Assembly: GCA_950295325.1 (NCBI GenBank)
Contig: OX485807.1
Span: 45,040,440-45,104,439 of the forward strand
Reading direction: 5' to 3'
Length of the DNA stretch: 64,000 nt
DNA from: Polytrichum commune
Taxonomy: Eukaryota > Streptophyta > Polytrichopsida > Polytrichales > Polytrichaceae
Part shown: piece by piece, positions 25,218 to 49,378 of the stretch
How the letters are laid out: each line of letters starts with the position of its first letter
Position numbering within the stretch: position 1 is the stretch's first letter
Made by a program: the position numbers and the translations under genes
Notes under the pieces: generated by a model
Seen by the model: the letters and a program-made list of their open reading frames with translations, nothing else
Told to the model about the DNA's origin: nothing
Database searches by the model: none

Positions 25218-25265
25218 GGAAACTCAAGTATGTGAGCATAGAGCGGAGAGCGGAGATTGGAGAGC
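25218..25265 (+). repeat. Left inverted end of the 24-kb element
   Basis: It starts GGAAACTCAAGTATGTGAGC and continues with GAGCGGAGAGCGGAGATTGG-like repeats. It pairs imperfectly with 49310-49369. Confidence 0.75.
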
Positions 25266-26211
25266 GGAAAATTTAGATTTTGTTGGGTAATTTTAGGAGA
25301 AGCAGTGCCTATTTCCGTGGAATTAGAGATAGTTTGAATTCTATATTTGGAAAGGTACCCCCATTCCCGTGGACATAATAACCCAGAATTGTTTGAGAAA
25401 CCAACGGATCCTATAGGCGTGGAAGATTGCATTTATTATCAAACATCTTATAGTATATGTTTTCAAATGTATCATATTAAATTAAGGCCGACGTCACCAA
25501 ATTGAAATCAAAATACCATACACAAAATATTTTATTGGTTAACAAAATGTAGCCAACCTCAAGACTTACAAAAATGGGTAGTTAGTTAAAATAGCTATAT
25601 ACTCTAGTTTAGGGCCATCTACACCCTATCTGCCGGGCATGTCCAATATGGGTAAAATGATCCAAAGAACATGCCATAAAACTCCGTCGCACCATAACAG
25701 CCTTCCAATTCAGTCCTTAGCTTAGCCAAAGACCTCAAAGACAAATCCCCCAAGTCCAACCTTAGAATCCTCTTGGAAATTTTTGAGGTGACGTGCCGAC
25801 TCTTTGAGAACAACATGAAGTTCAATTTAAAAAGTTTGACGAGGTTATGTTCGCGTGCCAAACAAAACTTCCAATTGCTATATAGCAATTGGGATTGGAA
25901 GACGGCCAATGTGATTAGTGTGCACAACCATAAAATAAATCATCCACACTAATAGAAAGTATGGTCCCCCTATAACTAAGATCTCACACTAAGAGCCGAG
26001 AGCTAGATTGTTTTGTGACTAGAAGTTAAGAGATCCGAATGATGAAGAAAAAATAAAGAATGCAATGCGGATTGACATTATGAATATGAAATAATGGAGA
26101 GAAAGAATGAAATTTGCGCCGGATATCAAAAATAAAACCAACACACAACTTTTATTAAAGCCGGATAACAACAACAAACGGAGTTATAATCTCCAAAACC
26201 AAAATGATAAA
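25266..26211. other. Element left arm and 3' flank of the methyltransferase-like gene
   Basis: AT-rich DNA between the left inverted end and the stop codon at 26212. A 102-codon minus-strand frame (25927-25619) has no recognisable domain. Nothing else was seen. Confidence 0.4.
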
Positions 26212-26674
26212 CTAAGGGCTTGGAGAACATTCCCTATCACTCTCCTCACCCTCATTTGCTTCTAACAAGAAAAGATTTCGTGTCCCACGCGAGAAATGAC
26301 GAACGCGAGGAGGAGATGGGGACTCCGCCTTCGCAAAACAATCCGCCATTGCACTAGCATACGGGGGAAGCTCAAACGGCTTCAGAGGACTTGAAAACAT
26401 GTCTCGACGAATGACTGCGACCTCCGCTGGCTCTCTAAACACCCAAGCAAAATGATTAGAAACATGATGACACTAGAAAATGAGAATTTGAAATCAAGGC
26501 AAACATGGCAAAATATAAAAAGCAAACTTACGCACAAAGGAATCCGAATGCCCTCTTGGTCATCTTTTGAGGAGGATCAAAGATAGATGTAGACGGTGCG
26601 GTAACTGAGCGAGATATACGCGCAGGCTGGGGATCGCGCATGGGGAGTAGGAGTGAATTGAAAATGACGGGGTC

Positions 26675-27647
26675 TGTCGCAACCCTTGCTAAGCCCCCTT
26701 GACAATCTTGCCAATTTTCAATTCTAGCAAAGGTTACGAGCGCTAACCATTCGCATTCCGCCATGCTAATGGTTAGCTCCTCCTACCCCGGACCATATAG
26801 CTCATAGGAGGGAACCAACCCTCCTACTTTGCTTTCGGGACTCACCCCTTAATCGGTAGCCCATTCCTAGATGTGGACTTCCATCCATGGAAGTCCAATC
26901 CCATGTTGATCATCGCGTTGCCGGAGCAACACTACAACAACCCGAACCATACTAGGCAACTATGGCCTCACAATAGGCCAAAGCCCATGGAGGCCTTGCC
27001 GTTCGGCCTCGGGTGGGTGAGGCCACACCACCTCACCCGTATAAGCCTCTAGGACTCTACGCGGGGCCCCTACCCCACCGTCAACCAACCTCTTGTCTCT
27101 CTACCAAGAGTTGGGGCCAAGTGGACACTTTCCCTTAGCCGCTGGGCCTAGAAGCCCCCAGCAACTTCAGACCATCATAACTTCCTTGTATGATGTCTGA
27201 TCATAACACTTGACCACTCCATCTTCATCTACGCTTCACGTAGATGCCGATGCACTCCTCACTTGCCCCATTCGGGCAAGTGGTGAGGAAGTTATGCCTG
27301 TTTGAACCTTTGCAGTCCCGGGAATCACTCCCAGGCACTGCTGTACCAGGGCGCTGTCCCGGGACAGCGCCCCACTCAAATGGCCATAACTCCTAGCTCA
27401 CACCTCCGATTGAGGTGTTCTTGAGCTTTCTAGAATCACCACGCCATGAGCTACGCATAACTCATCGCCTTCCCCTTGTGCCTCCTAGTCTCCGTGGGTG
27501 GGAGGCGTTCCCAACGCCCGGGGCCGTCACCCACACTAGGATCACTTGGGCCCTCTCACCAACGGCGCCACAAGTCCCGGGTGTCACTCCGGGGTCCCCC
27601 TTGTGCCCATGGTGTTTCGGGCACTCCTCATGGAGAGGTGCGCGACA
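26675..27647 (-). repeat. LTR (3' LTR of the minus-strand element)
   Basis: 973 bp with TGTCGC...GCGACA termini. It contains a 24-bp perfect palindrome at 27349-27372 centred on TGTCCCGGGACA. Short frames here repeat in the other LTR and are not genes. Confidence 0.95.
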
Positions 27648-27661
27648 CTCACCCCCACCAA
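27648..27661 (-). promoter_or_regulatory. Polypurine tract
   Basis: Read on the minus strand, TTGGTGGGGGTGAG directly abuts the 3' LTR. This is the expected position and composition of the plus-strand primer. Confidence 0.6.
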
Positions 27662-28539
27662 ACGGAGTCGATGCCCTCATCGACTATACTCATAGTCGGC
27701 ACACCAATTCTCAAGTTGCCATCCTCTATGGTGCGGCATTGTGTTTACCTTAGGGCGCGACCCCCACAATGCATCTTCAAATTTGGCATAGTCCCAAAGG
27801 TGTCGTTCCTAGGTGGTCCGTTAGCGACCTTGGATCTCTCATCCAAGGACCTAACCTATACTAGACCCACCTACTTTGGGACTCACTTGGGTTGCCCCTC
27901 CTTTGGGGCCTCCCCCGTTAGGCTCCACTAGCCTAACGTGACACATCTAGGCGAGACCTCAACGCTTCCACTAAGTTGTCTCGGTTGCAACTCCGAGATG
28001 GCTTTCCATTGTTAAGCCACGCCTCGATCGCACGGGGGTGATGCCAAGTCCCGCCCGACTCGGTTCCCACTTTGCTCTTTCGAGACATGGGTTCATGACT
28101 CCCATGCGCCAACTTTCGTTCGCTCGCGGGTAGCACTTTTATGAGCACGCGCCATCACCTTGTCCCCGCCCGGACAAGCCCACAACTAAGAAGTTTCTTG
28201 GTTTTATCCAAGGCCCCTCCAAGCCATGGCCCCCAATTACTTGGCTTACCCAACTTAGTTTGGCATATCTATTCCCCCTCTTCCATTAACCAAGTACAAG
28301 TACAAGACTAGGACCTCATCTCATACTTTTCTCTTTGCACCACTAAAGTTTGGACTTTATTCCCTCAAGCCAAAGAACAAGTTAATGTTGTGGAGCAATT
28401 AGCCTCGAAGCTAAGTGTGCTACTAGCGTCTCTCCCCCACTAAAGGAGATTGATGTCCTCATCAATGCCTACGCTTCTTTTTATTGGAATGTCTAGCCTT
28501 AATTTCTTCAAAGTGCTTTACCAATTCCTTGCCGTTCAT

Positions 28540-28870
28540 CATGTCTCTTGCCGCTACCAAACGGCTTCTTTCTCATGGTATCCTCACCATTTCACCAAGT
28601 ACTCCTTTGTTCATTTTTTTTCTTTTTCACTTGGGCTTCCTACACTTGAGGATGCCCTCCTACCTCATGTTCCAAATGACATCCACAAGGTCGGGAGGTG
28701 GCCTAATCACTTGCTTGTAATTTGGCCACAAGGTGTCGTCCTTAAATGGCTTTAGGAATGAGACATGAAATGTTGGATGCACTTTGATCTCGGGCGGTAA
28801 TTCCAACTTATACATGTCCTTGAACACTTGTTCCACAATGGGAAATGAAGCTCCAATTTTGGACATGACC
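28540..28870 (-). pseudogene. Integrase C-terminal tail and chromodomain remnant
   Basis: The stretch 28866-28660 reads VHPTFHVSFLKPFKDD, the conserved segment downstream of the integrase core. Past a stop at about 28660, frames give fragments resembling a chromodomain (KCRKPK, NKGVLGEMVRIP) and a helical tail. They are interrupted by nonsense codons and frameshifts. A chromodomain in this position identifies the element as a chromovirus; the present copy cannot make it. Confidence 0.55.
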
Positions 28871-29097
28871 TTTGGAGTGAGGCCTTCCGGTTAAGTGAAG
28901 TTGTTCACATTCAACAACATCTTTTGGCCCACCTCATTCTCCACTTCGCGTCTTCCGGCATTGACTTGCACTTCGTAGCACATTCGGGCTTTCTCCACCA
29001 ACAACTTGGTCATCTCCAAGACTTGTTTACAGTCTTGGCCAAGTCCTCACCATCTTGGTTGAACTCTAGTGTTGAATGTGCCCCCTCGAGAGCTAGG

Positions 29098-29974
29098 TTA
29101 ATAGGTTGGAGTGCATCCACTCCATAAGCCACCACGAAAGACCACCCCTTGTGTCGCCAAGTGCGTGGCTACATTGCAATTACACTCCGCTCGACCCACA
29201 TAGTCCGCCCAATCTCCTTGGTCTGCCCCCACCAAGTTCCTCAAGTATTGCTTCAAGTCTCCATTCACACGCTTTGTTTTCCCATCCATTTGGGAATACA
29301 CGGCCGTGCTAAACCTTAGTTTCAATACAACCTCCTTAGAGAAATGCATTGAAAATGCACTTGTGAACTTTGGATCTTGATCCCACACAATCACTCTTGG
29401 CAACCCGTGGTGCCTCAACCATCCTTTGAGAAAAGGCTATGCGGTCTCCAACGCGGTGGCGGTTTCCACAATCGGCACCATGTGTGCCCACTTGGCAAAC
29501 CACTCTACCATCAACAAGATGGCATCATACCCATGTGACTCCGGCAAACTTGTGATCAAGTCCATGCACATACTATGCCATGGCGCCGACGGGATAGGCA
29601 AAGGTTGCAAGAAACCGCCTTGCTTTTGGTAAGAGGCTCGGTTCACTTGGCACTTTGATTCAAGCCTTCACAAAGTGGGCTATATCTTCCTTTATGCACC
29701 GCCAATGGTACCTCCATGACACCATTCTATGGCGGTTTTTTCTTTCTCCTCTAAGGCCGGCAATAGGACTATGAAATTCTTCTTTCAAAACCGATAGCCT
29801 CAACTTGCCTTGTGGCACATACACCCAACTTTGCTTGCACTTGAACAATCCGTCCACCAACTTAACCTCTTTGAGCACCTTACTCTTGCGAAGTTCACCT
29901 AAAAGCTTTTGTGCTTTTGGGGTAGTTAATTTACCCCTCCCGTATCTTGCATCACAAGTTTCCTTCGCCGGCAC
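29098..29974 (-). pseudogene. Integrase remnant (zinc-binding and catalytic core)
   Basis: Pieces in order are 29974-29660 (LFKCKQSWVYVPQGKLRLSV, the region before and into the H2C2 finger, then EDIAHFVKA), 29646-29437 (PLPIPSAPWHSMCMDLITSL and GYDAILLMVEWFAKWAHMVP, holding the first core Asp), and 29418-29098 (RVIVWDQDPKFTSAF with the second Asp, then MDGKTKRVNGDLKQYLRN). The usual Glu of the T-E-R-V-N motif is Lys here (TKRVN), so the catalytic triad is broken in addition to the frameshifts. Family assignment is firm; function is lost. Confidence 0.85.
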
Positions 29975-30269
29975 ACATTAGCCACAAGGTTTGGATGGTT
30001 CTCATTACTTGGAACTCATCCGGTCTACTTCGCGCACCCGGCACCACATTTCCACGGTCCGGTTTGTGGATCAAATCCACCTTCATAAGCGCCAAACTAT
30101 CATGCCACCGCAATGACTTGGCGCTTACTTGCGCTTAAATGTCAAAATTGTTTTGGGACACATTGTCCATGTAGACCTTTGCTTTGTGCGACCCCAAATA
30201 GTGTCGCCACATCTTCAAGCAATGCACTACGACAAAGAAGTTCTTTGTCATGAGTTGGTTGTCTTCTTT

Positions 30270-31326
30270 GACAACCATCGAGCTTCATGCTCCCATATGC
30301 AATGGCCATCCATCTTACATCAACAATCCGCCATTGGCAAAGTTAATCACCCCCGTATGCACCTCAAAAGGTTTGTCAAGCTCCGCGAATTTGAGCACGG
30401 GCGTCTAAGAACACTTGCTCTCAAGCTCCCTAAAGACTTGGTGGCAAGGCTCATCCCACTCTTGGGATAGCCATTTCTTCCACAAGTCGGATAAGGTCGG
30501 ATAACCATCAAGCTTAACGCTCTAATATGCAATGGCCATCCATCTTACATAAACCATCCGCCAATTGCAAAGTCACTCGCCACCCCGTATTCACCTCAAA
30601 AGGTTTGTCAAGCTCCGCGAACTTGAACACGGGTGGCAAAGACAACTTTGTATTAAGCTCCCCAAAGACTTTGGGGGCAAGGCTCATCCCACTCTTAAGA
30701 TAGCCATTTCTTTCACAAGTCGCACAAGGTTTGACAACCTTTAAGCTTAATGCTCCCATATGCAATGGGCATCCATCTTGGATCAACATCCGCCAATGGT
30801 AAAGTCACTCGCCCCCGTATGCATCTCAAAAGGTTTGTCAAATTTCGCAAACTTGAGCACGGGCGGCGAAGAGAGCTTGCTCTTAAGCTGCTCAAAGACT
30901 TGGTAACAAGGCTCATCCCACTCTTGGGATAACCATTTCTTGCACAAGCCGTACAAGGTTCGACAACCATGGAGCTTAATGCTCCCATAAGCAATGGTCA
31001 TCCATCTTGGACCAACATCTGCCGATGGTAAAGTCCTTCGCCTCCATGTGCATCTCAAAATGCTTGTGAAAGCTCGGGAACTTAACCACATCTTGTGAAG
31101 GAAACTTGCTCTTGAGCTCCCCAAAGGCTTGGTGACAAGGCTCATCCCACTCTTGGGATAGCCATTTTTCCAACAAGTTGACTAAGGTCCTAGCAACCTT
31201 AGAAACACCTCGAATGAAGTAGTGGTAGTAGTTGGCTAGGCCAACAAATGACCTTAGCCCTTCTCTTGAGTCAAGGGCCAATTCTCCTCTTGGATTGCCT
31301 TGACATTTGTCATGTTCATCCACCAA
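30270..31326 (-). pseudogene. RNase H/connection remnant with tandem duplications
   Basis: The first copy (31326-30976) reads GLRSFVGLANYYHYFIRGVS and then the W-x-x-x-C-x-x-A-F-x-x-L-K pattern of the region joining reverse transcriptase and RNase H in Ty3 elements. The downstream part is repeated: units of about 230 bp start near 30285, 30511, 30744 and 30973 (plus coordinates), each beginning with an agcttaatgctcccatatgc-like sequence and each containing a W-L-S-Q-E-W-D-E-P-C-like or derived segment in differing frames. No YxDD catalytic motif of reverse transcriptase was found upstream; instead a run of T (31378-31400) joins protease-side sequence to this block. Confidence 0.7.
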
Positions 31327-31347
31327 CTTCCTTTGTCACCACATACC

Positions 31348-31895
31348 TCAAGAAATCAATCTCTCGTTGAGCAAGTTTTTTTTTTTTTTTTTTTTTTTTC
31401 CACTCGTTGGCGGTAACATTTTGGACAACACATTGGTGAATACATCCTTGTACCTCACCAACATCCCACCAATGTGGTTTTGGGGAGGCCCATCTTTCCT
31501 AGCCTCCCCATGAGTTCCTTGGAGTTGCTCCAATTGAACCACGACCATTATTATTATGTTTTTCCGTTTATTCATTTGGTCCATTAAGACCAAATTCGAG
31601 TTGGTTGCTCCTACCATAGGAGTCCTTGTCAATTTGTAGTGCAATTCTTTGCCATCAAGACATCACAAATGCACCGCAAGCTCACCGGCTTGCACCTCAC
31701 ATCTATCATGTGAGTTCCAAAGAAGGTAGCCTTCACAATGACATGCATTTCATCTATTTCACATGGTGTGAAATTTTGACAAAAATCCAATGTCCCACAT
31801 TGAAAAGTTACATGCATCGCGGCCTCCTTTGTTTCATGCGGTTCGCTCTTTCCAAACCGCACCTTGGTGGGCTTGCCCGCTCTATCAATCGGCAA
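31348..31895 (-). pseudogene. Protease-like and pre-RT remnant
   Basis: The frame 31895-31629 contains VTFQCGTLDFCQNFTPCEID followed by a VIVKATFFG-like stretch, matching the plant Ty3 segment C-terminal to the protease. The frame 31644-31348 ends in LVRYKDVFTNVLSKMLPP, the leader just before reverse transcriptase, and then runs into a poly-Lys tract from the T/A run. The reverse transcriptase palm that should follow is absent. Confidence 0.6.
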
Positions 31896-32448
31896 GCCCC
31901 AACTCCCTTGCGAGTTTTGGGCTCACGAAGGAATGGTAGCCTCTTTATCAACCCATGAGACATTTGTCCCATTCATTTGAGCCTCAAAGTACAAAAGACT
32001 TGGCCTCGGCTTAAGGCTACTAGCCTTGGCCACAATGCCATCGTCTTACATTCAGTCCGCGGCATAAGTATTATTTGGCGTGGTACCTATCTCCCCTCAA
32101 CGTCCATTGTTGTAAGGCACCACCAAATTTCTTATTGGGGTCATCGGCCTTAGTGCTCGTTGCAATTTTGATGATCCCCGCCACAACCTCAATAAACTTT
32201 TGGAAATTTGAACTTGGTATTCACCACCCGCTTTTGAAACCCCACCAAAAACGATGTACTTCTTAGAAAACTCGTTCATCTAAGATGCACAATTCATTTG
32301 GGTGTGAAATTCGCGCATATACGCCTTAAGAGGCCCGCACGCCTCATTTCCACCAAATTCATTCCAACATCAATACCTTCCAAGCTTTTCGAATTGGAAT
32401 TTCAATCCAACATTAATGCCCTCCAAGGTTTTGGGTGCATTCGGTATT

Positions 32449-32670
32449 CTAGGCCCCAAATGTTTTTTTGAGGTGTGCGGGAGCCCTTTCAAAGGACTCC
32501 ACCAATTTCCTTACCAAATCCACCATCATGCCCACCATTGTCATTAGAACCAATGGTATGGTCAAATTCCCTTTACACATGATTTTTGTTCCAATTTGAG
32601 CCTCACAACCTTTTGGAAACCCCGGGCTAACCATGATAACCCTCACGTTTGATAGCCATGTCTCCCTCAA
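32449..32670 (-). other. Possible gag remnant
   Basis: This 73-codon frame lies just inside the primer-binding site, where gag is expected. It contains the segment SFERAPAHLKKTF. No gag motif (such as a CCHC knuckle) was identified. The assignment rests on position only. Confidence 0.25.
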
Positions 32671-32696
32671 AGTGCTAGCTCAAATATTGGAACCCT

Positions 32697-32708
32697 GCTC
32701 TGATACCA
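32697..32708 (-). promoter_or_regulatory. Primer-binding site, initiator tRNA-Met type
   Basis: TGGTATCAGAGC on the minus strand starts two bases inside the 5' LTR (32711-33683). It is the standard plant tRNA-iMet complement and fixes the transcription direction. Confidence 0.9.
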
Positions 32709-32710
32709 AG

Positions 32711-33683
32711 TGTCGCAACCCTTGCTAAGCCCCCTTGACAATCTTGCCAATTTTCAATTCTAGCAAAGGTTACGAGCGCTAACCATTCGCATTCCGCCAT
32801 GCTAATGGTTAGCTCCTCCTACCCCGGACCATATAGCTCATAGGAGGGAACCAACCCTCCTACTTTGCTTTCGGGACTCACCCCTTAATCGGTAGCCCAT
32901 TCCTAGATGTGGACTTCCATCCATGGAAGTCCAATCCCATGTTGATCATCGCGTTGCCGGAGCAACACTACAACAACCCGAACCATACTAGGCAACTATG
33001 GCCTCACAATAGGCCAAAGCCCATGGAGGCCTTGCCGTTCGGCCTCGGGTGGGTGAGGCCACACCACCTCACCCGTATAAGCCTCTAGGACTCTACGCGG
33101 GGCCCCTACCCCACCGTCAACCAACCTCTTGTCTCTCTACCAAGAGTTGGGGCCAAGTGGACACTTTCCCTTAGCCGCTGGGCCTAGAAGCCCCCAGCAA
33201 CTTCAGACCATCATAACTTCCTTGTATGATGTCTGATCATAACACTTGACCACTCCATCTTCATCTACGCTTCACGTAGATGCCGATGCACTCCTCACTT
33301 GCCCCATTCGGGCAAGTGGTGAGGAAGTTATGCCTGTTTGAACCTTTGCAGTCCCGGGAATCACTCCCAGGCACTGCTGTACCAGGGCGCTGTCCCGGGA
33401 CAGCGCCCCACTCAAATGGCCATAACTCCTAGCTCACACCTCCGATTGAGGTGTTCTTGAGCTTTCTAGAATCACCACGCCATGAGCTACGCATAACTCA
33501 TCGCCTTCCCCTTGTGCCTCCTAGTCTCCGTGGGTGGGAGGCGTTCCCAACGCCCGGGGCCGTCACCCACACTAGGATCACTTGGGCCCTCTCACCAACG
33601 GCGCCACAAGTCCCGGGTGTCACTCCGGGGTCCCCCTTGTGCCCATGGTGTTTCGGGCACTCCTCATGGAGAGGTGCGCGACA
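32711..33683 (-). repeat. LTR (5' LTR of the minus-strand element)
   Basis: 973 bp; no difference from the left LTR was noticed by eye. It ends ...GTGCGCGACA before the target duplication GGGTC at 33684-33688. Confidence 0.95.
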
Positions 33684-36600
33684 GGGTCACTCTCAAGGGC
33701 CACAATATGCCGCTCAAGGGAGCGACATGCTGTAATCGAACCACCTAAAGCAACGAGAGATAAAATGTTAGTATGGAAACTAGTCAAGGAAAAATAATAG
33801 AAAATTCAAAGTAAGGATGAAGTTGAAAAATAAGGCGTACCTACACCACACTGCCAGTCCATAATAACATCATTCTTGTCGGTGAGAGTAGCGAGAAGGA
33901 TGGAAAAAAAAATAGGATGCTTCTCATGGGCACCTCGCCAAGGTACCCCATCACTACGCATCGCCTGGCTCTTCTCATCGGTGAAGGTATTCAACCATCC
34001 ATCTCGTTGGAGGTTGTAACCATACTCTTGTATGGCCTCCTCCCGCACTCTAAGAACGGAGTTAACACGAACAAGAACTTTGATGCTGAACTTCCGAGTC
34101 TGCAACAATGAAAATGAAATTGAATTGAAATGAAATGGAATTGAAATGAAATGGAATTGGAATTGAAATGATAAGCAATACGGAAGGGGAAGAGAGGGAG
34201 ACTTGCTTACCACTCCAGAGGGAACAACGGGAGATTGGAGGTCCAAATCATTCATTCCAAACCAATCTTCCGCGACGTAGAAGTCATAAGTGTGTGCCCA
34301 ATCGAAAATACTCCTAGAAACACTGGCACTCGCACAATGGGCAAGAACAAGGACACCATGATCATAGAGGTTAGATTTCGCAAATGCAAAAATACACTCA
34401 TAGTATGATTCATGGAGCTTGTTCCAAGCAGGAACATCGGTGGAGATGTTCGGCACCGGCAAATTCTCGGGAATGTCGGCGAAGAGCAAATCGAGGCCCT
34501 TGTGAGTTGTAGTCGAGGTGTTCACACGGGAACGACCTGCCCCAACCTGCAATTGAAACTTCATGAGAAAATAAGAAGGAAAGAAATAAGCAAAGCAAAG
34601 GAAAAAAAATTGAAAATTGACGAAGGCAAGTATACAAACCTTGGCAATGAACTCTTGGATGCAGGTATATGCAGGGAGGGGACCTCCGGCAACCTCGGAA
34701 TCCAACATTAGTTGAACCATGTCCACATTTTCGATGAGGGAAAGCGTGTTAGGGGCATCCGAAGAGGTGGCACTGGTATCCAAGAGAGCGGCCTTCCTCT
34801 TGCGAGGCAAAGAGAGGAGAGAAGTGTCACTATGAGATGGAGTGGCAAGAGATTGTGGATGAAATGTAGATGGAGTAACAGAGGGGGCAAGAGAGGGAGC
34901 AACGGAGGGAACGATAGATGGACTGTGTGGGAGGGTGGGTGGCTCAACTGGGGTCTTAGAAGCAGACCGAGTGAGAACTTGGGAAGATGCTTGAGTGGCG
35001 GTTTTCTTTGCTCTGCCCTTTCTCCTTGGTGCCTTAGAAGGAGGAGGGGGAAGCTCAACGATGTCAGGCTCCTCCAAGGTAACAATGTTATCATCCGGAG
35101 CACTACCCACAAGGCTAGCAAACAAAGCCTTCTCTTCCTCGGGGACAAATCCTGCAGCACAATCCAAGTACCATCCACCACCTTGCAAGTGCAATTCGGA
35201 GAACTTGATTATTTGCGCGGTCGTGTACACGCAGAGGCTAGAAAAAATATTCACCCAGTCCGAGAGGTAGTCCGGCAAGGAAGATGAGGCCAATGCATTC
35301 TTCACAACCAATTCTCTCATGATATACCTACATGACAAAACAAGAATGTAAGAAAACCAAGAAAACGAGCAAAAAATGAAATTAAGGAGAGGTGCAAAGT
35401 GGAGGATAGATGTATTACCGATAGGCCACACGCTTGATAGCGAGAGCCCCCTCCTCGAACTCCAAGAGATTATCACCTTTGGCAAAGGCGATGTCAGGCT
35501 TATCGCTGAGGTAAGGTTTGAAGGCCTTGTCCCAAAGGACAATCCGCCAATGATCAACGTACTCACGAGGGCGCAAGATAGTTTCTGATGCGTCCCAATC
35601 AATGTCGACGGAGAGGCTCTCCTCTAAGGTCTCAATTTCAACCGCGACTTCCTTCTCCAACTGCAGAGAGGGAGATGATTAGATATGAGATAAATGGAAT
35701 AGAGGAAAATGAAAATGAAGAAGGCCGAGGAATGGATTTACCTGAGCCCAGAAGGACGCTTTGTGTAGCCAGTCGTCCAAAGCCCTCTCCCTCATAGGCT
35801 TGTCGACGGGGAACTTGTTATCTAACCTTTCACGAAGGGGGGCGTTCCACCAGTAAAGCCACTTAGCTTTGAACGAAGGTTCGACCGGGCATGTGACAAT
35901 TTTTTGCAATTTTTCAATTGTCATGTCCGTCGAAGAGAACTCAATAAAATGGCGGTCAATCTGTGCACAAAATAAAAATGATTTGAGTTCAAAAGAATAA
36001 TAGAGTTGAAGAGTAATTTGGATGAATTGCGTTTAAGAATGATTTGAGTTCAAAAGAGTACCTCATGAAAGAAATCCTCTCCATTGTCAGGGTGTGCAAC
36101 GGATATGTACTTCTCAAAAGAACGGGCCCGAATACTTTTGATTGTCCTCTCCTGGGCCTTGGTCATAACATTCCAAATCTTAGTGGCCGACCTCTCCGCA
36201 ACGGGTGTGGTCTCACGGTAATGCCTCACTGCAAGGTCTGCTTGAGCCGAAATGTCTCTCTGCAAGAAATGATCTTGTGAGTTCATATAATCGGCATAGA
36301 AATTGTCTATGTTGGAAGTTCTAAATGATTGAATGCACAAACTATACCTTGTAAAGAAACTTAACGAACACATCTGCGGTCAAGGTGTTCCAAGTTGGAC
36401 GACTCTTCTTTATCTTCTCGCATGCTTTGTAGTCAGATGGCGATATGAGATCCTTGAAGGTGGACAACTCTAACCTTCCAAAAGTGCGGATTCGAAGGAG
36501 CTTGGCCGGAATGTTTGCCTTGACATAATCATGCTTGGTTGACCTGAGAGAAAATATGTGATGAACATGAGGTGAAAAGAATGGAAAAAAATTGAAACAA

Positions 36601-36829
36601 AAATGAAAAATGAATGAAAAAAATGAGTGAGCTTACCAATTAATGTCGCTCATGGCATTGAGAAATATACCGGTGTATCCTCTAGGGTCAACAACAATGC
36701 AATCCACCGAGATATGCCAACTCTTGTCATCGGCGTGGTGGTTATTGATGTGTCTCCACCAAGCGGTGAGACGATGATTGCCTTCCCAGACGAAGAACAT
36801 CTTCCCGGCGAAATGTGCAAGATCCGGAT

Positions 36830-39294: not shown

Positions 39295-39314
39295 TCACGG
39301 GTGTTCACCCGTGA
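39295..39314. repeat. Hairpin repeat, copy 1
   Basis: TCACGGGTGTTCACCCGTGA: 8-bp arms with a GTTC loop. It is preceded by a ttacttgttacatgg segment shared with the copies at 39688 and 42260. Confidence 0.8.
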
Positions 39315-39687
39315 GGTTCACATTTGATGATATTCCAGGGGAGGTCACTCCATTGCCAAGTTGCATCACCAAAATGGGTCAAAATTTTCTCAATTTTTTT
39401 TGGAAGGTAGATATACATGATATCTATTACGGGGTAAAATATCACGACCAAATTTGATGATCATATTTTTCTAGAAAACATACCATTTCTACCTAGAATG
39501 ACGTAGAATTCAACTAAAACAATTACTAGGAAAAATGAAGATGACAAAAAATTTCAAAAAAATAACCAAAAGGTATAATCAATGGTTATGAATATAGAGG
39601 AAAAAAATCATAATTTTTAAAAATATTTGACATGGAGACATCTCCCCGTGATGATGCTAAATCCTACCCAAGTTACCTGTTACATGG

Positions 39688-39709
39688 CCCACGGGTGTTC
39701 ACCCGTGGG
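39688..39709. repeat. Hairpin repeat, copy 2
   Basis: It has the same CACGGGT-GTTC-ACCCGTG hairpin as copy 1, with arms extended to CCCACGGGT/ACCCGTGGG. Confidence 0.8.
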
Positions 39710-39964
39710 GCACACATTTGATCTTGTTAAAACCTAACTTTTCATGCACATACCTTGACACAAAAATGAGGCCTCGGATCCGAGGCCTCTTCCGAATGCC
39801 CCTCCTTATGAAATACATACTACAGAAAATGGCCGAGAGAATTCAAAAATGAACCTAACATTCTCATTTTTCAAGCACACAACCTGACTCAAAAATGAGG
39901 CCTCGGATCCGAGGCCTCTTCCCAAAGCTCCTACTTATGCACTTAACAAAATACAATCCCCCCC

Positions 39965-40170
39965 CCCCCGCAGCTTCAGACCTCCATATCTTCCACGTGT
40001 GGTCTCCGAATCTAACAATCAACCACTCCATCGTCGTCTACGTGAAATGTAGATGCCGATGGACACCTCACTTGCCCCATTTGGGCAACAATCAAGGAAG
40101 TTATGCCTGTTTAAACATTCGCAGTCCCGGGAGCCACTCCCAGGGGACTGCTGATCGAGGGCACTAAAAG
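39965..40170 (+). repeat. Diverged LTR fragment captured in the palindrome array, copy 1
   Basis: Motifs in order match the interior of the chromovirus LTR (about 27158-27350): cagcttcagacc, accactccatc, gtagatgccgatg, cacttgccccatt, ggaagttatgcctgttt, gcagtcccgggagccactcc. It is diverged, lacks LTR ends and has no target duplication. An almost identical copy is at 40568-40770. Confidence 0.75.
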
Positions 40171-40567
40171 GAGGCCTCGGATCCGAGGCCTCATTTTGAA
40201 ACTAGTGTACATACTCAAAAACAAGCAAAGTGCCTCATTCATACAAGCTATACGTTGAATCAAAAAACCTCAAGTGGCCTCGGCGGAGAGGTCTCGGATC
40301 CGAGGCCTCATTTTGAAACTAGTGTACATACTCAAAAACAAGCAAAGTGCCTCATTCATACAAGCTATACGTTGAATCAAAAAACCTCAAGTGGCCTCGG
40401 CTGAGAGGCCTCGGATCCGAGGGCTCACACACAAAGTAATTTACGTACTCCAAACCAACCATAGTGCCTCATCCGTACACATGTTTTGGAACACATAAAA
40501 GAGGCCTCGGATCCGAGGCCTCTTCTCCTAGCTCCTACATATGCACTTAACAAAACACATTTCCCCC

Positions 40568-40770
40568 CCCCCCGGCAGCTTCAGACCACCATATCTTCCA
40601 GGTGTTGTCACCGAATCTAACAATCAACCACTCTATCCTCATCTACGTGAAATGTAGATGCCGATGGAAACCTCACTTCCTCCATTTGGGCAAAATTCAA
40701 GGAAGTTATGCCTGTTTAAACATTCGCAGTCCCGGGAGCCACTCCCTGGGGATTGCTGATCGAGGGCACT
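40568..40770 (+). repeat. Diverged LTR fragment captured in the palindrome array, copy 2
   Basis: Near-duplicate of 39965-40170. It is followed by the same spacer (cgagggcactaaaaggaggc) and preceded by the same C-run, so it was amplified together with the surrounding palindrome units. Confidence 0.75.
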
Positions 40771-42259
40771 AAAAGGAGGCCTCGGATCCGAGTCCTCATT
40801 TTGAAACTAGTTTACATACTCAAAAACAAGCAAAGTGCCTCATTCATACAAGCTATACGTTGAATCAAAAAACATCAAGTGGCCTCGGCCAAGAGGCCTC
40901 GGATCCGAGGGCTCACACACAAAGTAATTTACGTACTCCAAACCAACCATAGTGCCTCATCCGTACACATGTTTTGGAACACATAAAAGAGGCCTCGGAT
41001 CGGAGGCCTCATTCACAAACTAGTTTACATACTCAAAACAAACCAAAGTGCCTCATCCGTACACTTGTTTTGGAACACATAAAAGAGGCCTCGGATCCGA
41101 GGCCTCATTCACAAACTAGTTTACATACTCAAAACAAACCAAAGTGCCTCATCCGTACACATGTTTTGGAACACATAAAAGAGGCCTCGGATCCGAGGCC
41201 TCATTCACAAACTAGTTTACATACTCAAAACAAACCAAAGTGCCTCATCCGTACACATGTTTTGGAACACATAAAAGAGGCCTCGGATCCGAGGCCTCAT
41301 TCACAAACTAGTTTACATACTCAAAACAAACCAAAGTGCCTCATCCGTACACATGTTTTGGAACACATAAAAGAGGCCTCGGATCCGAGGCCTCATTCAC
41401 AAACTAGTTTACATACTCAAAACAAACCAAAGTGCCTCTTCCGTACACTTGTTTTGGAACACATAAAAGAGGCCTCGGATCCGAGGCCTCATTCACAAAC
41501 TAGTTTACATACTCAAAACAAACCAAAGTGCCTCATCCGTACACATGTTTTGGAACACATAAAAGAGGCCTCGGATCCGAGGCCTCATTCACAAACTAGT
41601 TTACATACTCAAAACAAACCAAAGTGCCTCATCCGTACACATGTTTTGGAACACATAAAAGAGGCCTCGGATCCAAGGCCTCATTCACAAACTAGTTTAC
41701 ATACTCAAAACAAACCAAAGTGCCTCTTCCGTACACTTGTTTTGGAACACATAAAAGAGGCCTCGGATCCGAGGCCTCATTCACAAACTAGTTTACATAC
41801 TCAACCAACCAAAGTGCCTCATCCGTACACTTGTTTTGGAATACATAAAAGAGGCCTCGGATCCGAGGCCTCATTCACAAACTAGTTTACATACTCAACC
41901 AACCAAAGTGCCTCATCCGTACACTTGTTTTGGAACACATAAAAGAGGCCTCGGATCCAAGGCCTCATTCATAAACTAGTTTACATACTCAAAACAAACC
42001 AAAGTGCCTCTTCCGTACACTTGTTTTGGAACACATAAAAGAGGCCTCGGATCCGAGGCCTCATTCACAAACTAGTTTACATCCTCAAAAACAAGCAAAG
42101 TGCCTCATTCATACAACTTATACTTTGAATCAGAAAACCTCAAGTGGCCTCTGCCGAGAGGCCTCGGATCCGAGGCCTCACACACAAACTAGTTTACATA
42201 CTCAGAACCAACCAAAGTGCCGCATAAAGACATGCCTAACCAAGTTACTTGTTACATGG

Positions 42260-42281
42260 CCCACGGGCGTTCACCCGTGGG
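42260..42281. repeat. Hairpin repeat, copy 3
   Basis: CCCACGGGC-GTTC-ACCCGTGGG, with one arm mismatch, again after ttacttgttacatgg. Confidence 0.8.
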
Positions 42282-43230
42282 GCACAAGGCAGAGAGCAAG
42301 GAATCAAAAATGGAAGAAAGTTGACATTCCATTAGTTTGAGAAATCAAGAACCTCACCTCTCTCAAAACCCTACCTCTCACATACTCAAACTTATACAAA
42401 TATGAGGCCTCGGATCCGAGGCCTCTTCCCCTAGCTCTTTCTTATGCACTACACAAAACAAGACAAGGCCGAGAGCAATTGATGTGCACATAACATTTTG
42501 ATTTTTCAAGCACAAACCTACCCACAAATAAAAGACCTCGGATCCGAGGCCTCTTCCTATGGCTCCCACTTATGCACTACACAATAGAAGAAACGGCCGA
42601 GAGCAAGGCATCAAGAAAGCAAGAAAGTTGACATTCCATTAGGTTGAGAAATCAAGAACCTCGCCTCTCTCAAAACCCTACCTTTCACATACTCAAACTT
42701 ACACAAATATGAGGCCTCGGATCCGAGGCCTCTTCCCCTAGCTCGTTCTTGTGCACTACACAAAACGAGCCAAGGCCAAGAGCAATTGATGTGCACATAA
42801 CATTTTTATTTTTCAAGCACAAACCTACCCACAAATAAGAGGCCTCGGATCCGAGGCCTCTTCCTATGGCTCTCACTTATGCACTACACAATAGAAGAAA
42901 TGGCCGAGAGCAAGGAATCAAGAAAGCAAGAAAGTCGACATTCCATTTGTTTGAGAAATCAAGAACCTCGCCTCTCTCAAAACCCTACCTTTCACATACT
43001 CAAACTTACACAAATATGAGGCCTCGGATCCGAAGCCTCTTCCCCTAGCTCATTCTTGTGCACTACACAAAATGAGACAAGGCCGAGAGCAACATGATGT
43101 GCACATAACCTTTTGATTTTTCAAGCACAAACATACCTTTCCTGACATGTTCCTAAACCCAAATCAGGACAAGGCCGAAAGCAAGTCAAGCTGATATTCC
43201 AAATACTATGAGAAATCAAGGTGATAGAAA

Positions 43231-44229
43231 TTAAGCAAAAACGTTGGCGAACATAGCTTGGCCGAGATCCCGACACCTTACCAGAATTTGGAGTATGCCC
43301 TCCACTGAAGCCCCTATATTGGCGCCACTATCTTCCGAGGTCCCGTCCTCTGTCGGCGTTATTGGAGTGCTTCTCGAATCTCTGAGGTTTACTTGCGCCA
43401 TTCCTCTCCCGCGGCCACGCCCTCGCCTTGATGTTTGTTGTGTTCCGCCCGCCTTGCTTCGCTGAAATCTTGAAGCAGGGGTCACAACATCCACACTTAG
43501 GGTTTCTGCGCATGGGTCTCCTCCTTCAGCTCTTTCGCGGCCTCCCAACAAATTTGATTTCAGATCTTCCTTTGCCGCTTTCCTCTTGGACGCCTTCATT
43601 TTTTCTCTTGCTTGAATCGTTGGTTGTCCCGACATCGGTTCTCGCTCTTCTAACGCCTTCTCAATTTGTTGTGCTACCTCCTTGTTGTCTTCTTCGTAGA
43701 TATTTCCACTATCTCCACTCCCCCTTTCTTCCTATATTTAAGATAAAACAATGTTTATAACAATGATGACAAACCATAATATCTAAAAGAAAAGTTGTTT
43801 CACAGTTGAATATGTTCTACCATTTTTATTATGTGCTCAAACAACTGAATATATGGAGAACCCGAAGAATACGTACGACACTTGTAGAGTTTGTTTCTTC
43901 GCATGAGTCCTCTTGGATGCTGTCGTTTCCCAACTCCTCCACTTCTGCCATTGGTTGCGTTTTACTTCCGTCCGCCTCTTCTACAATCGGTGATAAATGA
44001 AAAGGCCGAATCCCACAGTCTAGCCTCCACGAAGGTTCCGCAGGTCCTTTATGCTTTGGCTCAAATCCTCAGGCGTCCCACGGCCCTCGATTGGCGCTTT
44101 CCTTGCCTGTGACTTTTGTGTCCTCACTGTCTTTCTCTTCTTATCAGTGTAATGTGTAGACGATCGCCTCCTCTTCTTTTTCTTAGATGGTTCCGTTGTC
44201 GGAGGTTGTGAATTGCCTATTTCCTTCAT
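43231..44229 (-). CDS. Basic, probably nuclear protein of the 24-kb element
   Basis: The start is ATG at 44229, followed by a strongly basic stretch (KKKKRRRSS and DKKRKTVRTQ) that looks like a nuclear localisation signal. A second open block (about 44040-43877) contains SPIVEEADGSKTQPMAEVEE and ends at a plausible donor (gtacgt). The third exon (43731-43231, acceptor atatag) gives an acidic start, then MKASKRKAAKEDL and a GRGRGRG segment resembling an AT-hook, and ends LGQAMFANVFA. The join between the first two blocks needs a frame change I could not resolve. No enzymatic domain was seen. The gene is divergent from the transposase, with the two starts about 320 bp apart, so they may share a promoter. 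A DNA-binding accessory role is inferred only. Confidence 0.5.
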
Positions 44230-44548
44230 GTGTTCAACCCTCCCGCAATTCAGACCTATTCGCTCTATTTCCTTTCCACAACCTCACCACATCAAACTCA
44301 CACATTGGAAAGAAAGTGAGCAATCGCATTCTTCTCAGTATATAATTGCAATACCTCCCGATGGGAGGCGCGCTTTACTATCTGACAACCATCTTTGTAA
44401 TTAGGGGTATCTTTTTTTAGGATGCCTGACAGTTTTGTCTCCTTCCTGATATTCATGCGTATTTGTTTATAACTTCATCATCATCACCATTCTCCTTCTC
44501 TATGCATCTTTGCATCTTTGTTCCTTCACGTTTGCTTTCTCTGCCTTC
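44230..44548. promoter_or_regulatory. Divergent promoter region
   Basis: This 319-bp gap separates the starts of the minus-strand basic-protein gene and the plus-strand transposase gene. No clear TATA box was fixed. The role is inferred from the gene arrangement. Confidence 0.35.
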
Positions 44549-47500
44549 ATGGCTTCCACCTCAATTCTTCCTCCCGTCTCTGAGATGGCCGAACTTCGTT
44601 CACATGGCATCGGGGTCCCTATTATATTCCCCATTGGTGCACAAGGTATTGTTGTTGTCTCGGAGCTTCATCTTAGCATTAGGTTCTCTTTGAAAGCTAG
44701 TACAATATGGGTAGAGCGTGAGATCTACCATCCTGATACTGGATTGCTCGTTCATACCTTCCATGAGACCTCCAAGGTAACTGACAATGGCAATGTAGTG
44801 TGGGAGCTTGGCGCGGGAAAGTATAGGGTTTGTGGCTGGCCAGATTCTCAGATGGGAGTGTCAACAGAAATCCTTCCTCCTCTTCGATCATCCACTGTTG
44901 CCTTTAGCACACCCCCGGTAATAAGCGTCAAGACCGAGCCTGGTGTAGACAACGTTATAGACTTGTCTGATTCTTCGAGTGAAGATGTACCAGTGCATAA
45001 GGCTGCTGTCCATGATTCCCCTCATTTGTTTCCCTTTGCATCCTACGTAACGCCTTCTCCATCTAGCTCTGTCCCTTCAACTAGTTCGGTCCCTACATCT
45101 AAACCTCCTCAAACTATTGTTCAATGTCTTCGTCGTCTTGGCTCTATGCCCGGTAGTAAGAACGTCCTCAAGAAAATAGATTACAATAAAATCAAAATCC
45201 AAGAAGTTAATCACCTTCCCCCTCGTTTCGATGGCACCCAGTTATTTGTCCTCCCTGCAGCAGAAGTCTCTTCATCTTAAACCAGGGCCAAGTCGTTGGA
45301 CGGCATGGACAAGCAATATGATGGCCATGTTTGGACTAAGACTCAAACCACCAACATTACAAATGACGTTGGCCTTGCATTTCGTTCCTCTACCTGTGTT
45401 GGCCATCTCCAATGCCAAAACCCGAGTTGTGATTACCTTCAACGCGCCCATCGTACCTCTAAGGTCAATGACACAGAATTTGAAGGTTTCACTAAAGATC
45501 CTTTCCCTCTCTCTGGCATTGTGCCATCCGGATCTACTCTTGTCTGCAGGATTTGTAAAGAGCCTCCCAAATGCATTGCACTATGCGAGGCCAAAATCTT
45601 CTACGTCCATGGGAAGGAGTCATCCCAAAGAGCCTACATTCATCTCAGTTCTCATCAACATCCAGTGAAGGTTGGAGACTGTAGAGACAGTTGGAAACGT
45701 ATCAATGCACTTCTTGAGGAGCACGTTGAACGTACGCCTGAAGCCACCCACAGCAAGATCGTCCTTGAAGCTAGCAAGAACATTGTTGGTGAGTTTCTCC
45801 TTTCTGGCGATAACGACACACACCGTCTCTTCTCTTTAAAAGAGCTTGAACCTGTTTTTGAGAGCTGTAGAGAGTTGAATTCCCCAAACCTTCGCTCTAA
45901 GGTTACCTCTTTCAAATATTTGCGGAGGTTTGGTGTTATGGATGGCATCGCGAAGCTCCGAGGCATTAGCAATTGGGCCTACATCCAACGGAACCAATTC
46001 CCAGGACAAGGTGACAATACAGACAAGGTGTTCGTCTTCAAGATGTCGGAGGTTGGTCCTGGAAGTGGAGTGGATTTGGTTCGTCGGATGCAACCGGGTG
46101 GGGACCTGGAGAACGCGTGGATGATGTCCGATCACGTGAAGCGGGTCAAAGGGTGGACCACCATGGCCGCTCATGTGTACGATGGGACTTATCAACGGGT
46201 CATGACCATTTCATGTTGTGATTTCCAATCGGAGAATAAGGATGCCCAAGTTCTCTTCTGGCAGAACCTCAACCACGTCATGGCCCGACACGGTATCCCA
46301 CATCCAAACTTTATAGGCTTCATGGCGGACAGTGCCCAAGCCAATTGGAACGTTGTTCGCATTGTGTATGGTTCAGGGGATCCCAAAGTTCCAATGGAGG
46401 GTCGTGAGCGCACTTGTTTTTTCCATTGGAAACAATCGCTCGAAAAACATACGAAATCGTATATAAAGCATGAGTTACAAGACCAACATAGACATCTTTG
46501 CCTTCAATATCGAAATGCGTCATCTATGGAAGAGGTTGAGACTACGTACCTAGCTATCAAGGCTTGGTGGGCGTCATCGAATTGTACAAGTGAGGACGGT
46601 CTCAAGCATCTTCAGCTCTGGCTTGCTTTTTGGCACTTCCGCTACCTTCAATGGGGTGGTTTCATGGAACTGGTACATCTCCTTTATAATTCATTATTGG
46701 TTTTTCTTGGATTCGATTTCCTCTCTCTGTACATTTATATTAATACTTGATTTCTCCAATCAGGAAAAGGTTTTAACCCAAGACCAATTGGCCGAGATGC
46801 CGTCGTGCAATCTTGCGGAGTCCGTCCACAACAAGTGGCTTCAAGCCTCCGGCAACAAGGGTGGAGATCTATACGTGGCTACGGTTGACGACTACATTCG
46901 CGCCTTCTTACAAGTTGTTGCATACTACCAGTTCCTTAAAGGTGGAATTGGCGGAGATGGTCCAAGCAAAGAAGAACTAAAGCTCAGGGGTGCTCAACGT
47001 CGAGCTCAGCGTACTGGCGACCCCACAGTGTTGCAGAATGTCTTGCTTGACATGTCCGGTGGGGAAGAATTTTGCACTCGCGATCCACACCTTGAGGGCG
47101 CCGAGGTGTTTGGATCGCAGAAGCGAAGACCAGACACTCCAATTGGTGATAATGGCGAGATCCACCGCCCCGATACCGTGAACTTCTCTCGCCCTCCCCC
47201 CGGTAAGCGTGTCACTCGATCTCAACCAGAAACACTACCCACTATCATTGAGGAGTCTTCCCCCTCTGTACAAGAGGTTCAAGTGCCTTCACCTGCAGGA
47301 CTTAGTTTCCAGCGTGTCACTGCCGTGCAAGAAACCAAAGTAGATGTCTCTCTTTGGCATATTGCCCGCATACCCTATACATCTGGGAAGTCTTGTTGGG
47401 CTAATCATGCGGGCACGAAGAAGAAGTGCACCGCAAGAATCGTCACTAATAATAAGAGCGTCCCTGCGCTGACCTACACCGGTATGTGGCATCATTACAA

Positions 47501-48221
47501 ACTCCAATCTATGAAGCGCACGGACTTTGTCTTTTGCCCAGACAACATTGAGCGTTGCGTGAAGGGCCCTCGTCGGAAATGGGTCATGCAGTTCTCTGCT
47601 GATGACCAGAAGCCTCCTATTCCCCCAATCTGGCCCGTGAAGATTGGTACCAACCTCACCCGCTCGGAGATCTTCGTCCTTGAGAACGCAGGTTTTCAAC
47701 TCCCACCAAAGGAGCGCATCACACCGACTCAACTCTTCACCAATTCTGCTCCCCCGCTGGATATGTCTGGAATCCGTGTTCCAGAAAACCCCGACATGAT
47801 CCCTCCGACAAAATTGTCCAAGCTTGTTCGGCGATCCAGCAGCGCACCTTCGGCAAAGCAGAGGCAGATGATGGCCTCTGCTGAAGCTGTGCATGGTACC
47901 GTTCTGAAGTTAACTATGATCCCTCAACCGGGATTTGGTTGCATTATCACACTGCAGTCCAAATCAGAACCCCAACCACCGATCTACCAAATGACAGTCA
48001 GTTCTCTTCCAGAGTGCAACTGCGCATACTTCTTGGATATGATTTCCAAGTTCAGCCGCAAACGAAATTCTTATCTGAATTGTAAGCATTTGTATTACAT
48101 TTTCATCAAGGTTTCTAATTTGGATGCGGAAGTGAATTTGTTCATTCACGCCTTGACATTTAGCTTCAACGAAGTCAAACTCTTCCTCGAAGGGGGTCTT
48201 TTGACAAAGTCTACTTCTTAG
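44549..48221 (+). CDS. DDE/SWIM transposase of the 24-kb element
   Basis: Exon 1 is 44549-46672 (donor gtacat). Exon 2 is 46764-48221, in phase after tttctccaatcag. About 1190 residues if read through one in-frame TAA at 45278-45280. After an N-terminal domain and an acidic Ser-rich linker comes a Cys-containing segment, then the RNase H-fold core: AAHVYDGTYQRVMTISCCDF (first Asp), NFIGFMADSAQANWNVVRIV (second Asp), and RTCFFHWKQSLEKH, the C-x-x-H region seen in Mutator-like transposases. The third acidic residue probably lies in the Trp-rich helical region near FWHFRYLQWGGFMEL. Exon 2 has SCNLAESVHNKWLQASG and a C-terminal SWIM finger, CNCAY...NCKHLYYIF. The SWIM finger and core suit MULE or KDZ transposases. 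Whether the TAA is a recent mutation or separates two ORFs (the next ATG is at 45296) is unclear. Confidence 0.8.
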
Positions 48222-48382
48222 GATTTATCTCAGCCTAGCAGTACTTTGGGCTATGATATATGTATCCATTTCTGGACCTCTTGTGAAGCAATAATTGATT
48301 GATATAATAAAGGTATAATCTCAATAATTATTTTTATTTGCTTCAAAATTTTGTATTACAATGCTTCCTATGTCTATCAACT

Positions 48383-48850
48383 CTATTTCCGTTTTGCATA
48401 CTTCTTAGATGATTGCGAGGGAGGTGGACCCGGTCGAAGCAAATCCATATAAGAAACTGTCTTATCTCTCTTTCGATCCTTTAGCGGAAGATGATGCGGC
48501 GTCATTCCTCTCATCCGTTCGCGAAATGAAAGAGACTTCAAAGATTTCCCTTCCACCTTCACCTCCTCCTCCGTTTCGTTCGATTTGTCTTCATCCAAAT
48601 CAGCATCCTTCTCCGGCACATCCTCCTGCCTGTTTTCTTTTTTTTCATATTTTTTTTGCTCCTCCCGTACCCTCCACCTCCATGCTTGTGTAGATTGCGA
48701 AAATGGAGTCAGCTCGTAATCATCACTACTTCGATTTCCAGCAGCAAACTGAAATTCCGGCGATGGATTAACCGGAATATGAGGATCTGCTAGACTTCTA
48801 ATTTCCTTATCCCATCCTAATCCAGCAAACATGTCTCTCTCATCTCCCAT
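48383..48850 (-). CDS. Small charged protein of the 24-kb element
   Basis: A 156-codon frame starts at MGDERDMFAGLGWDKEIRSL (an in-frame ATG also lies at 48892). The middle is highly charged, with runs of Glu/Lys (REEQKKYEKKENRQ, DEDKSNETEEEVKVEG) suggesting a disordered or coiled-coil segment, and the end is basic (SSKKYAKRK). It lies between the transposase stop and the right inverted end, convergent with the transposase. No family was recognised. Its consistent composition and its position inside the element suggest a real accessory gene. Confidence 0.5.
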   Translation of the reverse strand: MGDERDMFAGLGWDKEIRSLADPHIPVNPSPEFQFAAGNRSSDDYELTPFSQSTQAWRWRVREEQKKYEKKENRQEDVPEKDADLDEDKSNETEEEVKVEGKSLKSLSFRERMRGMTPHHLPLKDRKRDKTVSYMDLLRPGPPPSQSSKKYAKRK

Positions 48851-48892
48851 TGTGTGCAACTGTATATACAATGATGTTGGGTATGAGTCCAA

Positions 48893-49309
48893 TTTATAAT
48901 CTAATCGGCCACAAACGATAATTGCTAAAGTCTAAGCTATAGAATAGACTCACATATAAGACAAAGAGAAAAGTGATGAATAAAAACCAAGCAAGTTTAT
49001 TATTTTGATTCCTTTGTATTTTGATTGACTCATTCTTCAATTATACCAATCTCAAAAAATCCATTTTCATTGATTTTTTCTTGTAGTCATCCTTGGTTTT
49101 AATAATTCAACCACCTCACGGTTTCCAAACTTAATGAGACCATTTCAAATTCAAGGTTTTTATTTTATTTTATGACCTATACATCCCACGGAAATAGGTC
49201 CAATTTTTTTACTATTATTGTTAGATTTTGGAATATTCTTGGTATATTCTTGGCTATTTTGAAATATCCTAATTTTAATCTGACAAGTTTACTATTTTTA
49301 TTTCCTCTA
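48893..49309. other. Element right arm, non-coding
   Basis: AT-rich DNA between the small gene and the right inverted end. Nothing was recognised. Confidence 0.5.
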
Positions 49310-49369
49310 CGCTCTCTGCTCTCCAAATCTACGCTCTCCGCTCTACGCTCACATACAAGTGTCGTCCCC
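49310..49369 (-). repeat. Right inverted end of the 24-kb element
   Basis: Read inward from 49369 it goes GGGGACGACACTTGTATGTG and then AGCGTAGAGCGGAGAGCGTA. The 20-bp core TATGTGAGCGTAGAGCGGAG differs by one base from the left end. Confidence 0.75.
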
Positions 49370-49378
49370 TTTGCAGAG
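49366..49378 (+). repeat. Right target duplication of the 24-kb element
   Basis: CCCCTTTGCAGAG, identical to 25205-25217. The tnp2 frame resumes at 49379. Confidence 0.75.

Follow-up and report, generated by a model that had tools for sequence, protein, structure and literature searches.

The window, the 64,000-nucleotide stretch of Polytrichum commune DNA analysed here as a whole, holds a single DNA transposon of 24.15 kb (positions 25217–49367) in which a cargo gene and a transposase gene diverge from either side of a palindrome array. We consider it somewhat better than an even chance (about 0.55) that the cargo is a sequence-specific DNA-binding protein, which would recognise the palindromes of its own lineage and control the expression or silencing of the element. 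The combination of a ParB-type protein, cis palindromes between divergent genes and the joint change of both suggests, by analogy, a system of self-recognition. More tentatively, and at slightly less than even odds, the element may be a transposon counterpart of ParB–parS, with a ParB-fold clamp, a catalytically altered second domain of methyltransferase descent, self-specific control of silencing, and protein and palindromes that change together.

The ends of the element were placed by comparison with two other complete copies, L039/40 (∼15.8 kb) and L045/46 (∼17.3 kb). All three are flanked by a 10-bp target-site duplication (CCTTTGCAGA in the window copy, ACAGGGCATG and GCAGTTTCTG in the other two), so that the flanking repeat of up to 13 bp which the window copy alone would permit is set aside. 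The inverted repeat common to both ends is imperfect. The flanking sequences are the two halves of a single Transposase_21 domain, with profile positions 1–44 on the left and 50–206 on the right, and the element is therefore a true insertion, in agreement with an earlier note on this DNA that read one unit bounded by inverted ends and a direct repeat. A search of the genome (408 Mb, 64 contigs) gave 117 matches to the left end GGGAAACTCAAGTATGTGAGC at ≤2 mismatches and none to its reversed control.

Table 1. Features of the transposon and its insertion site, in window coordinates
Feature	Position	Strand	Detail
Left target-site duplication CCTTTGCAGA	25207–25216	.	inside CACTA Transposase_21 gene
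Left terminal inverted repeat	25217–25268	+	GGGAAACTCAAGTATGTGAGC, then AGAGCGG-like repeats
Cargo exon 9 rest and last exon	26215–26669	-	26532–26669; last exon about 26215–26434
LTR retrotransposon in cargo exon 9	26675–33683	-	duplication GACCC
Cargo exon 1 remainder, exons 2–8, exon 9 start	33684–36824	-	GNHR end of ParB-like domain, helical region, linker, methyltransferase-like domain
Motif I-like DWQCGVGGS of cargo		-	split by intron 33745–33840
Motif IV-like ADIPEN of cargo	near 34475	-	
Solo LTR in cargo exon 1	36830–37802	+	duplication ATCCG
Cargo exon 1, first part	37803–38180	-	ParB-like domain up to solo LTR
Array of 22-bp palindrome GAGGCCTCGGATCCGAGGCCTC	38581–43040	.	96-, 117-, 127- and 307-bp repeats
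Small charged protein	43234–43731	-	frame; upstream exon possible within 44023–44283
Transposase	44549–48218	+	44549–45277, in-frame TAA at 45278, exons 45284–46672 and 46764–48218, intron between
Second small charged protein	48386–48856	-	
Right terminal inverted repeat	49315–49367	-	
Right target-site duplication CCTTTGCAGA	49368–49377	.	

The upstream part of the transposase is in the same frame as the rest and separated from it by one TAA; the corresponding first exon of L045/46 is open and lacks this stop. Among the matches listed, 28 of 92 transposase rows have a 766-codon frame free of stops inside the match. The predicted model, with a pTM of only 0.36, has an RNase H-like catalytic core with structural matches that include ISCth4, retroviral integrases and Hermes, supporting the DDE transposase read previously. 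Results on the proposed Mutator/KDZ affiliation are mixed. Members of the Mutator superfamily (MULE) have target-site duplications of 8–11 bp and terminal inverted repeats; the 10-bp duplications of the three complete copies agree with this, and the model resembles an IS256-type transposase to a modest degree. The profile tests do not: single-sequence Pfam scans matched no model to either the transposase or the cargo, Pfam tests gave no MULE match for the transposase, one of 26 transposase members matched Transposase_mut weakly (E 0.034), and kinship to MULE frames of the same genome was rejected at an hhalign probability of 0.4. In these respects the protein is unlike Mutator and IS256-type transposases. 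KDZ is not named among the families matched by the 26 members, which leaves that part of the affiliation without support. Both small charged proteins of the earlier description are present, and both are matched at 81–97% identity in L039/40 and L045/46; in L039/40 the match to one of them is spread over two frames.

The cargo gene lies on the minus strand, divergent to the transposase, and comprises about 10 exons with nine GT-AG introns. Its protein carries the motifs GNHR, DIPE, CGVGGS and ALESD, as first reported. The window copy is damaged, which had gone unremarked: two insertions, one a solo LTR and the other an LTR retrotransposon, each flanked by a 5-bp duplication, interrupt the cargo, and the transposase has its in-frame stop. 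In L039, L041, L043, L045 and L057 the two parts of exon 1 run on without a break; the cargo of L057 is interrupted at another place.

The N-terminal part of the predicted cargo structure adopts the fold of the ParB N-domain (ParB/sulfiredoxin-fold) in comparisons with the pdb_via and viral libraries. In the viral library, two of 201 Foldseek matches reach E ≤ 0.001, and many of the best 50 of the 201 are ParB-like by name. This bears out the ParB/Srx-like fold suggested earlier. An exon-based search found 666 homologues, of which 64 were used from 120 listed; the spliced cargo as a single query had matched one, P0001. Across the 64, the G, N, H, R and A of GNHRLTA are each at least 90% conserved. 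ParB CTP-dependent clamps have a GxxRxxA nucleotide motif, and we take GNHRLTA to be a motif of this type. A profile of the ParB exon found no ParB match among PDB sequences or in Pfam, so the kinship is drawn from structure comparison only; DndB (one of 64 members, at 0.16) and DUF6551 (one of 64, at 0.24) were taken as chance matches. With tblastn against phages, the exon matched two records, in both cases at a repressor gene. Bacterial ParB, Noc and KorB bind palindromic sites (parS, NBS and operators, respectively), and the cargo resembles them in fold, in its GxxRxxA-like motif and in the presence of inverted-repeat sites on the same element. It differs from them in its methyltransferase-like fusion and its intron-bearing gene.

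The palindrome array, which the earlier note does not describe, lies between the cargo and the transposase and contains 33 sites of GAGGCCTCGGATCCGAGGCCTC at ≤4 mismatches, 20 of them perfect. The palindrome contains both GATC and GGCC. It occurs across the genome in 1,903 exact copies. Among the first 50 distinct places listed, 49 fall in three clusters adjoining genes or ends of elements, and the remaining one is isolated. The DNA flanking the window element has no GAGGCCTCGGATCCGAGGCCTC palindrome over 25.2 kb to the left and 14.6 kb to the right. Four further elements of the same lineage (L1) have 21, 31, 109 and 119 sites, the two highest counts coming from incompletely fetched elements, and overall the number per element ranges from 16 to >100. 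The sites are 94–98% alike, compared with 47–84% for their 22-bp flanks.

Related lineages carry different dyads. In L054 (transposase 84% identical), a 139-bp unit holds the dyad GACCCTCTCGGTTCCGAGAGGGTC at 49 sites. A similar dyad, CCCTCTCGGAATCGAGAGG, occurs in L056/L059 (transposase 89%) at 12 sites, of which three lie away from the main array, and L054 also gives 40 matches to this form; the cargo pieces of L056/L059 are 52–75% identical in the N-terminal half, while those of the C-terminal half range from 56% to 86%. In L058/L060 (transposase 87%), where the cargo has fallen to 28–48% over the matched pieces, the dyad GGTGCCGGCAACGGCACC is unrelated and occurs at nine sites, eight in an array at ∼373 bp. 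L1 sites are absent from L054, L056/L059 and L058/L060, and the dyads of these are absent from the three L1 elements tested. As judged from this sequence comparison of transposase, cargo and dyads, covering four lineages and three dyad types, the cargo diverges more quickly than the transposase, and dyad differences accompany those in the cargo.

The arrays could instead have nothing to do with the cargo, and be sites bound by the transposase, minisatellites prone to form hairpins, or the product of drift in DNA liable to slippage. Site numbers from 16 to >100 per copy do vary in the manner of a minisatellite, and because the transposase lineages differ too, the dyads could follow the transposase. 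However, the dyad is far better kept than the rest of the repeat unit, the arrays are internal rather than at the element ends, and the dyad of L058/L060 is wholly different while the transposase, unlike the cargo, is still 87% identical. We regard this explanation as quite improbable.

The second recognisable part of the cargo, connected to the ParB-fold domain by a helical region and a linker, is methyltransferase-like. A single-sequence PDB search returned five matches, all to amino-methyltransferases and all weak (best E 0.05), whereas a six-row profile matched DpnA (E 5.6e-5) and CcrM (0.015), followed by two unrelated entries (0.3 and 0.78) and then by rotifer N4CMT (0.81–0.89). An hhalign comparison with five phage methylases gave a probability of 96.9% (E 1.3e-10, 57 columns); these five were picked from tblastn matches and do not form an independent sample. 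In the tblastn search itself, 22 of the best 25 rows (41 records matched, E 0.005–7) lie on methylase or methyltransferase genes and three on tail proteins. The previously suggested homology to beta-class amino-methyltransferases is thus supported by profile comparison, with motifs in the order IV...I and the significant part in the motif X-I-II region. The cargo shares this order with DpnA, CcrM, rotifer N4CMT and the phage methylases, as well as the motif I region and the spacing (residues 23–36 and 176–223 of DpnA against 19–32 and 177–224 of the cargo; the first piece alone scores below zero).

The catalytic motif IV of beta-class amino-methyltransferases is [DNS]PP[YFW], and here the cargo departs from them. 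The canonical motif is absent from all six aligned cargo rows, which have neither the double proline nor the aromatic residue and read ADIPEN (three rows), ADIPKN (one), ADVPEN (P0001) and AEYPDG (L058). Two further, degraded copies have ADILEN and AYIPEN, and RGxxEK stands where the phage enzymes have HPxxKP. These changes bear on the proposal of the earlier note that the cargo marks or protects its own DNA, as an N6-adenine or N4-cytosine methyltransferase with intact activity, which would bind the element, modify it and so protect it or change its chromatin. Such an activity has been proposed for algal relatives in the available text of PMC12477816, and would agree with the profile homology, with the GATC and GGCC in the palindrome and with a motif I region retained even in L058 (DLTAGTGAS). 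Because motif IV is non-canonical in six of six rows, we nevertheless consider self-marking by methylation doubtful and give it little credence. To judge from its sequence, the domain is most likely a DNA- or SAM-binding module rather than a standard amino-methylase. METTL14 is a non-catalytic methyltransferase partner, and by analogy the domain may act as one; an unusual activity is also possible.

Is the cargo a regular part of the family? From 203 cargo matches, 56 loci were taken among the matches listed, and 39 of these have a divergently oriented transposase no more than 60 kb away; for 26 of them the distance is 8–12 kb, where chance would give ∼1.5 neighbours in any orientation. A listed cargo lies within 60 kb of 34 of 41 transposases at ≥95% identity and of 8 of 51 more diverged ones, leaving 50 of 92 with none. 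We rejected the reading that many transposase copies lack the gene: all four left ends opened among the 50 do carry a cargo, in one case (L058) only as a distant relative, and the absences are therefore at least partly due to the limits of the search. In L054 the 10 kb preceding the transposase contain an array and no cargo; this region ends short of the left end. Within the copies examined, the transposon family carries the cargo as a regular component. Neither of the outcomes that the earlier note set against its own reading, a missing structural match or copies consistently devoid of the gene, was thus encountered.

Of 29 cargo loci (L010–L038), 18 are free of in-frame stops over the compared pieces, and 13 lack stops, frameshifts and gaps altogether; a splice site is altered in four or more of the latter. 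Mean dN/dS is 0.40 over 29 sequences (the window copy and 28 loci, L017 being left out for gaps), with 0.35 for the ParB, helical and linker parts and 0.68 for the methyltransferase part.

In the mechanism we propose, the cargo would recognise the palindromes of its own lineage and load onto the array that separates cargo and transposase, much as ParB loads at parS and KorB at operator sites. It would then spread or recruit factors on the element. The element would thereby be kept expressed, through anti-silencing of the kind that VANC provides for VANDALs, or its expression would be tuned. A KorB-like cargo might alternatively be an autoregulator, repressing transcription of transposase and cargo from the palindromes so as to limit copy number, with no anti-silencing role. 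We think this unlikely: 16 to >100 sites per element seem in excess of what a repressor needs. Anti-silencing or expression control through binding is favoured because the anatomy of the element fits self-recognition and VANC provides a precedent.

In the available text of PMC5735166, the targets of Arabidopsis VANC are tandem repeats outside coding sequence, which vary from one related VANDAL element to the next and evolve with the protein. The same pattern, of non-coding tandem repeats differing along with a transposon-encoded protein, is seen in our four lineages; the likeness seen is one of organisation, and the string "palindrom" has no match in that text. ParB–methyltransferase accessory proteins have already been reported for algal transposons (PMC12477816, as far as its available text goes), including a giant 21.5-kb DNA transposon in which a gene opposite the transposase encodes a 1,104-aa ParB-like and amino-methyltransferase protein. 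The window element shares this arrangement. The transposase of the algal element is Sola-1 and its methyltransferase is predicted to produce 4mC or 6mA, whereas the window element has another DDE transposase and a non-canonical motif IV; lineage-specific palindrome arrays, a feature of the window family, are not mentioned for the algal system in that text. Among the open-licence PMC papers listed, titles and abstract beginnings mention no such arrays together with a ParB–methyltransferase. While such transposon proteins are already known, the arrays, their change between lineages and the altered motif IV appear to be new.

How transposons escape silencing at minimal harm is an open question, for which VANC is the known example. 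If our reading is true, a second and apparently unrelated type of protein would follow the same logic of own recognition sites that change with it, which would suggest convergent evolution of self-specific control, and a ParB-type clamp would be placed in a eukaryotic nucleus. The finding also questions the assumption that transposon ParB–methyltransferase proteins work through DNA methylation. Thanks to the dyads the reading can be tested directly, as each lineage supplies a protein with its own candidate site and the other lineages serve as controls.

The 24.15-kb transposon is inserted in a CACTA element, since Transposase_21 sequence flanks it on either side (window 24735-25235 and 49394-50988). 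At the locus holding a complete copy of about 15.8 kb (L039/L040), a second family element begins approximately 1.3 kb past that copy's right end, at 19227-19974. In the same genome, contig G000 C4:47464041-47577203 carries two cargo/transposase pairs about 110 kb apart, and the identical scores and opposite orientation of the pairs make this arrangement look like an inverted duplication.

Within the window array, a second dyad class is present in three places, in a separate repeat of its own.

Location of the second dyad class
Feature	Window positions	Context
CCCACGGGTGTTCACCCGTGGG and variants	39252-39328, 39646-39722, 42218-42294	within array

Dyads also lie outside the main arrays. In the diverged elements L056 and L058, single copies of the dyad of their own lineage are present beyond the main array, inside the cargo gene stretch (L056, C3:55832788-55833331; L058, G000 C5:10838147). 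A lone perfect copy of the window's array palindrome, at G000 C1:13839475, is separate from the element genes among the cargo and transposase matches listed.

The cargo gene itself varies within the family. The cargo copies at L050, L055 and L056 lack the intron by which methyltransferase motif I is interrupted in the window's lineage; intron loss or gain has therefore occurred within the transposon family. Compared with the window, the L055 and L056 cargo genes look mosaic, with N-terminal pieces at 52-75% identity and C-terminal pieces at up to 87%, and this difference between the two ends suggests that sequence was exchanged between lineages.
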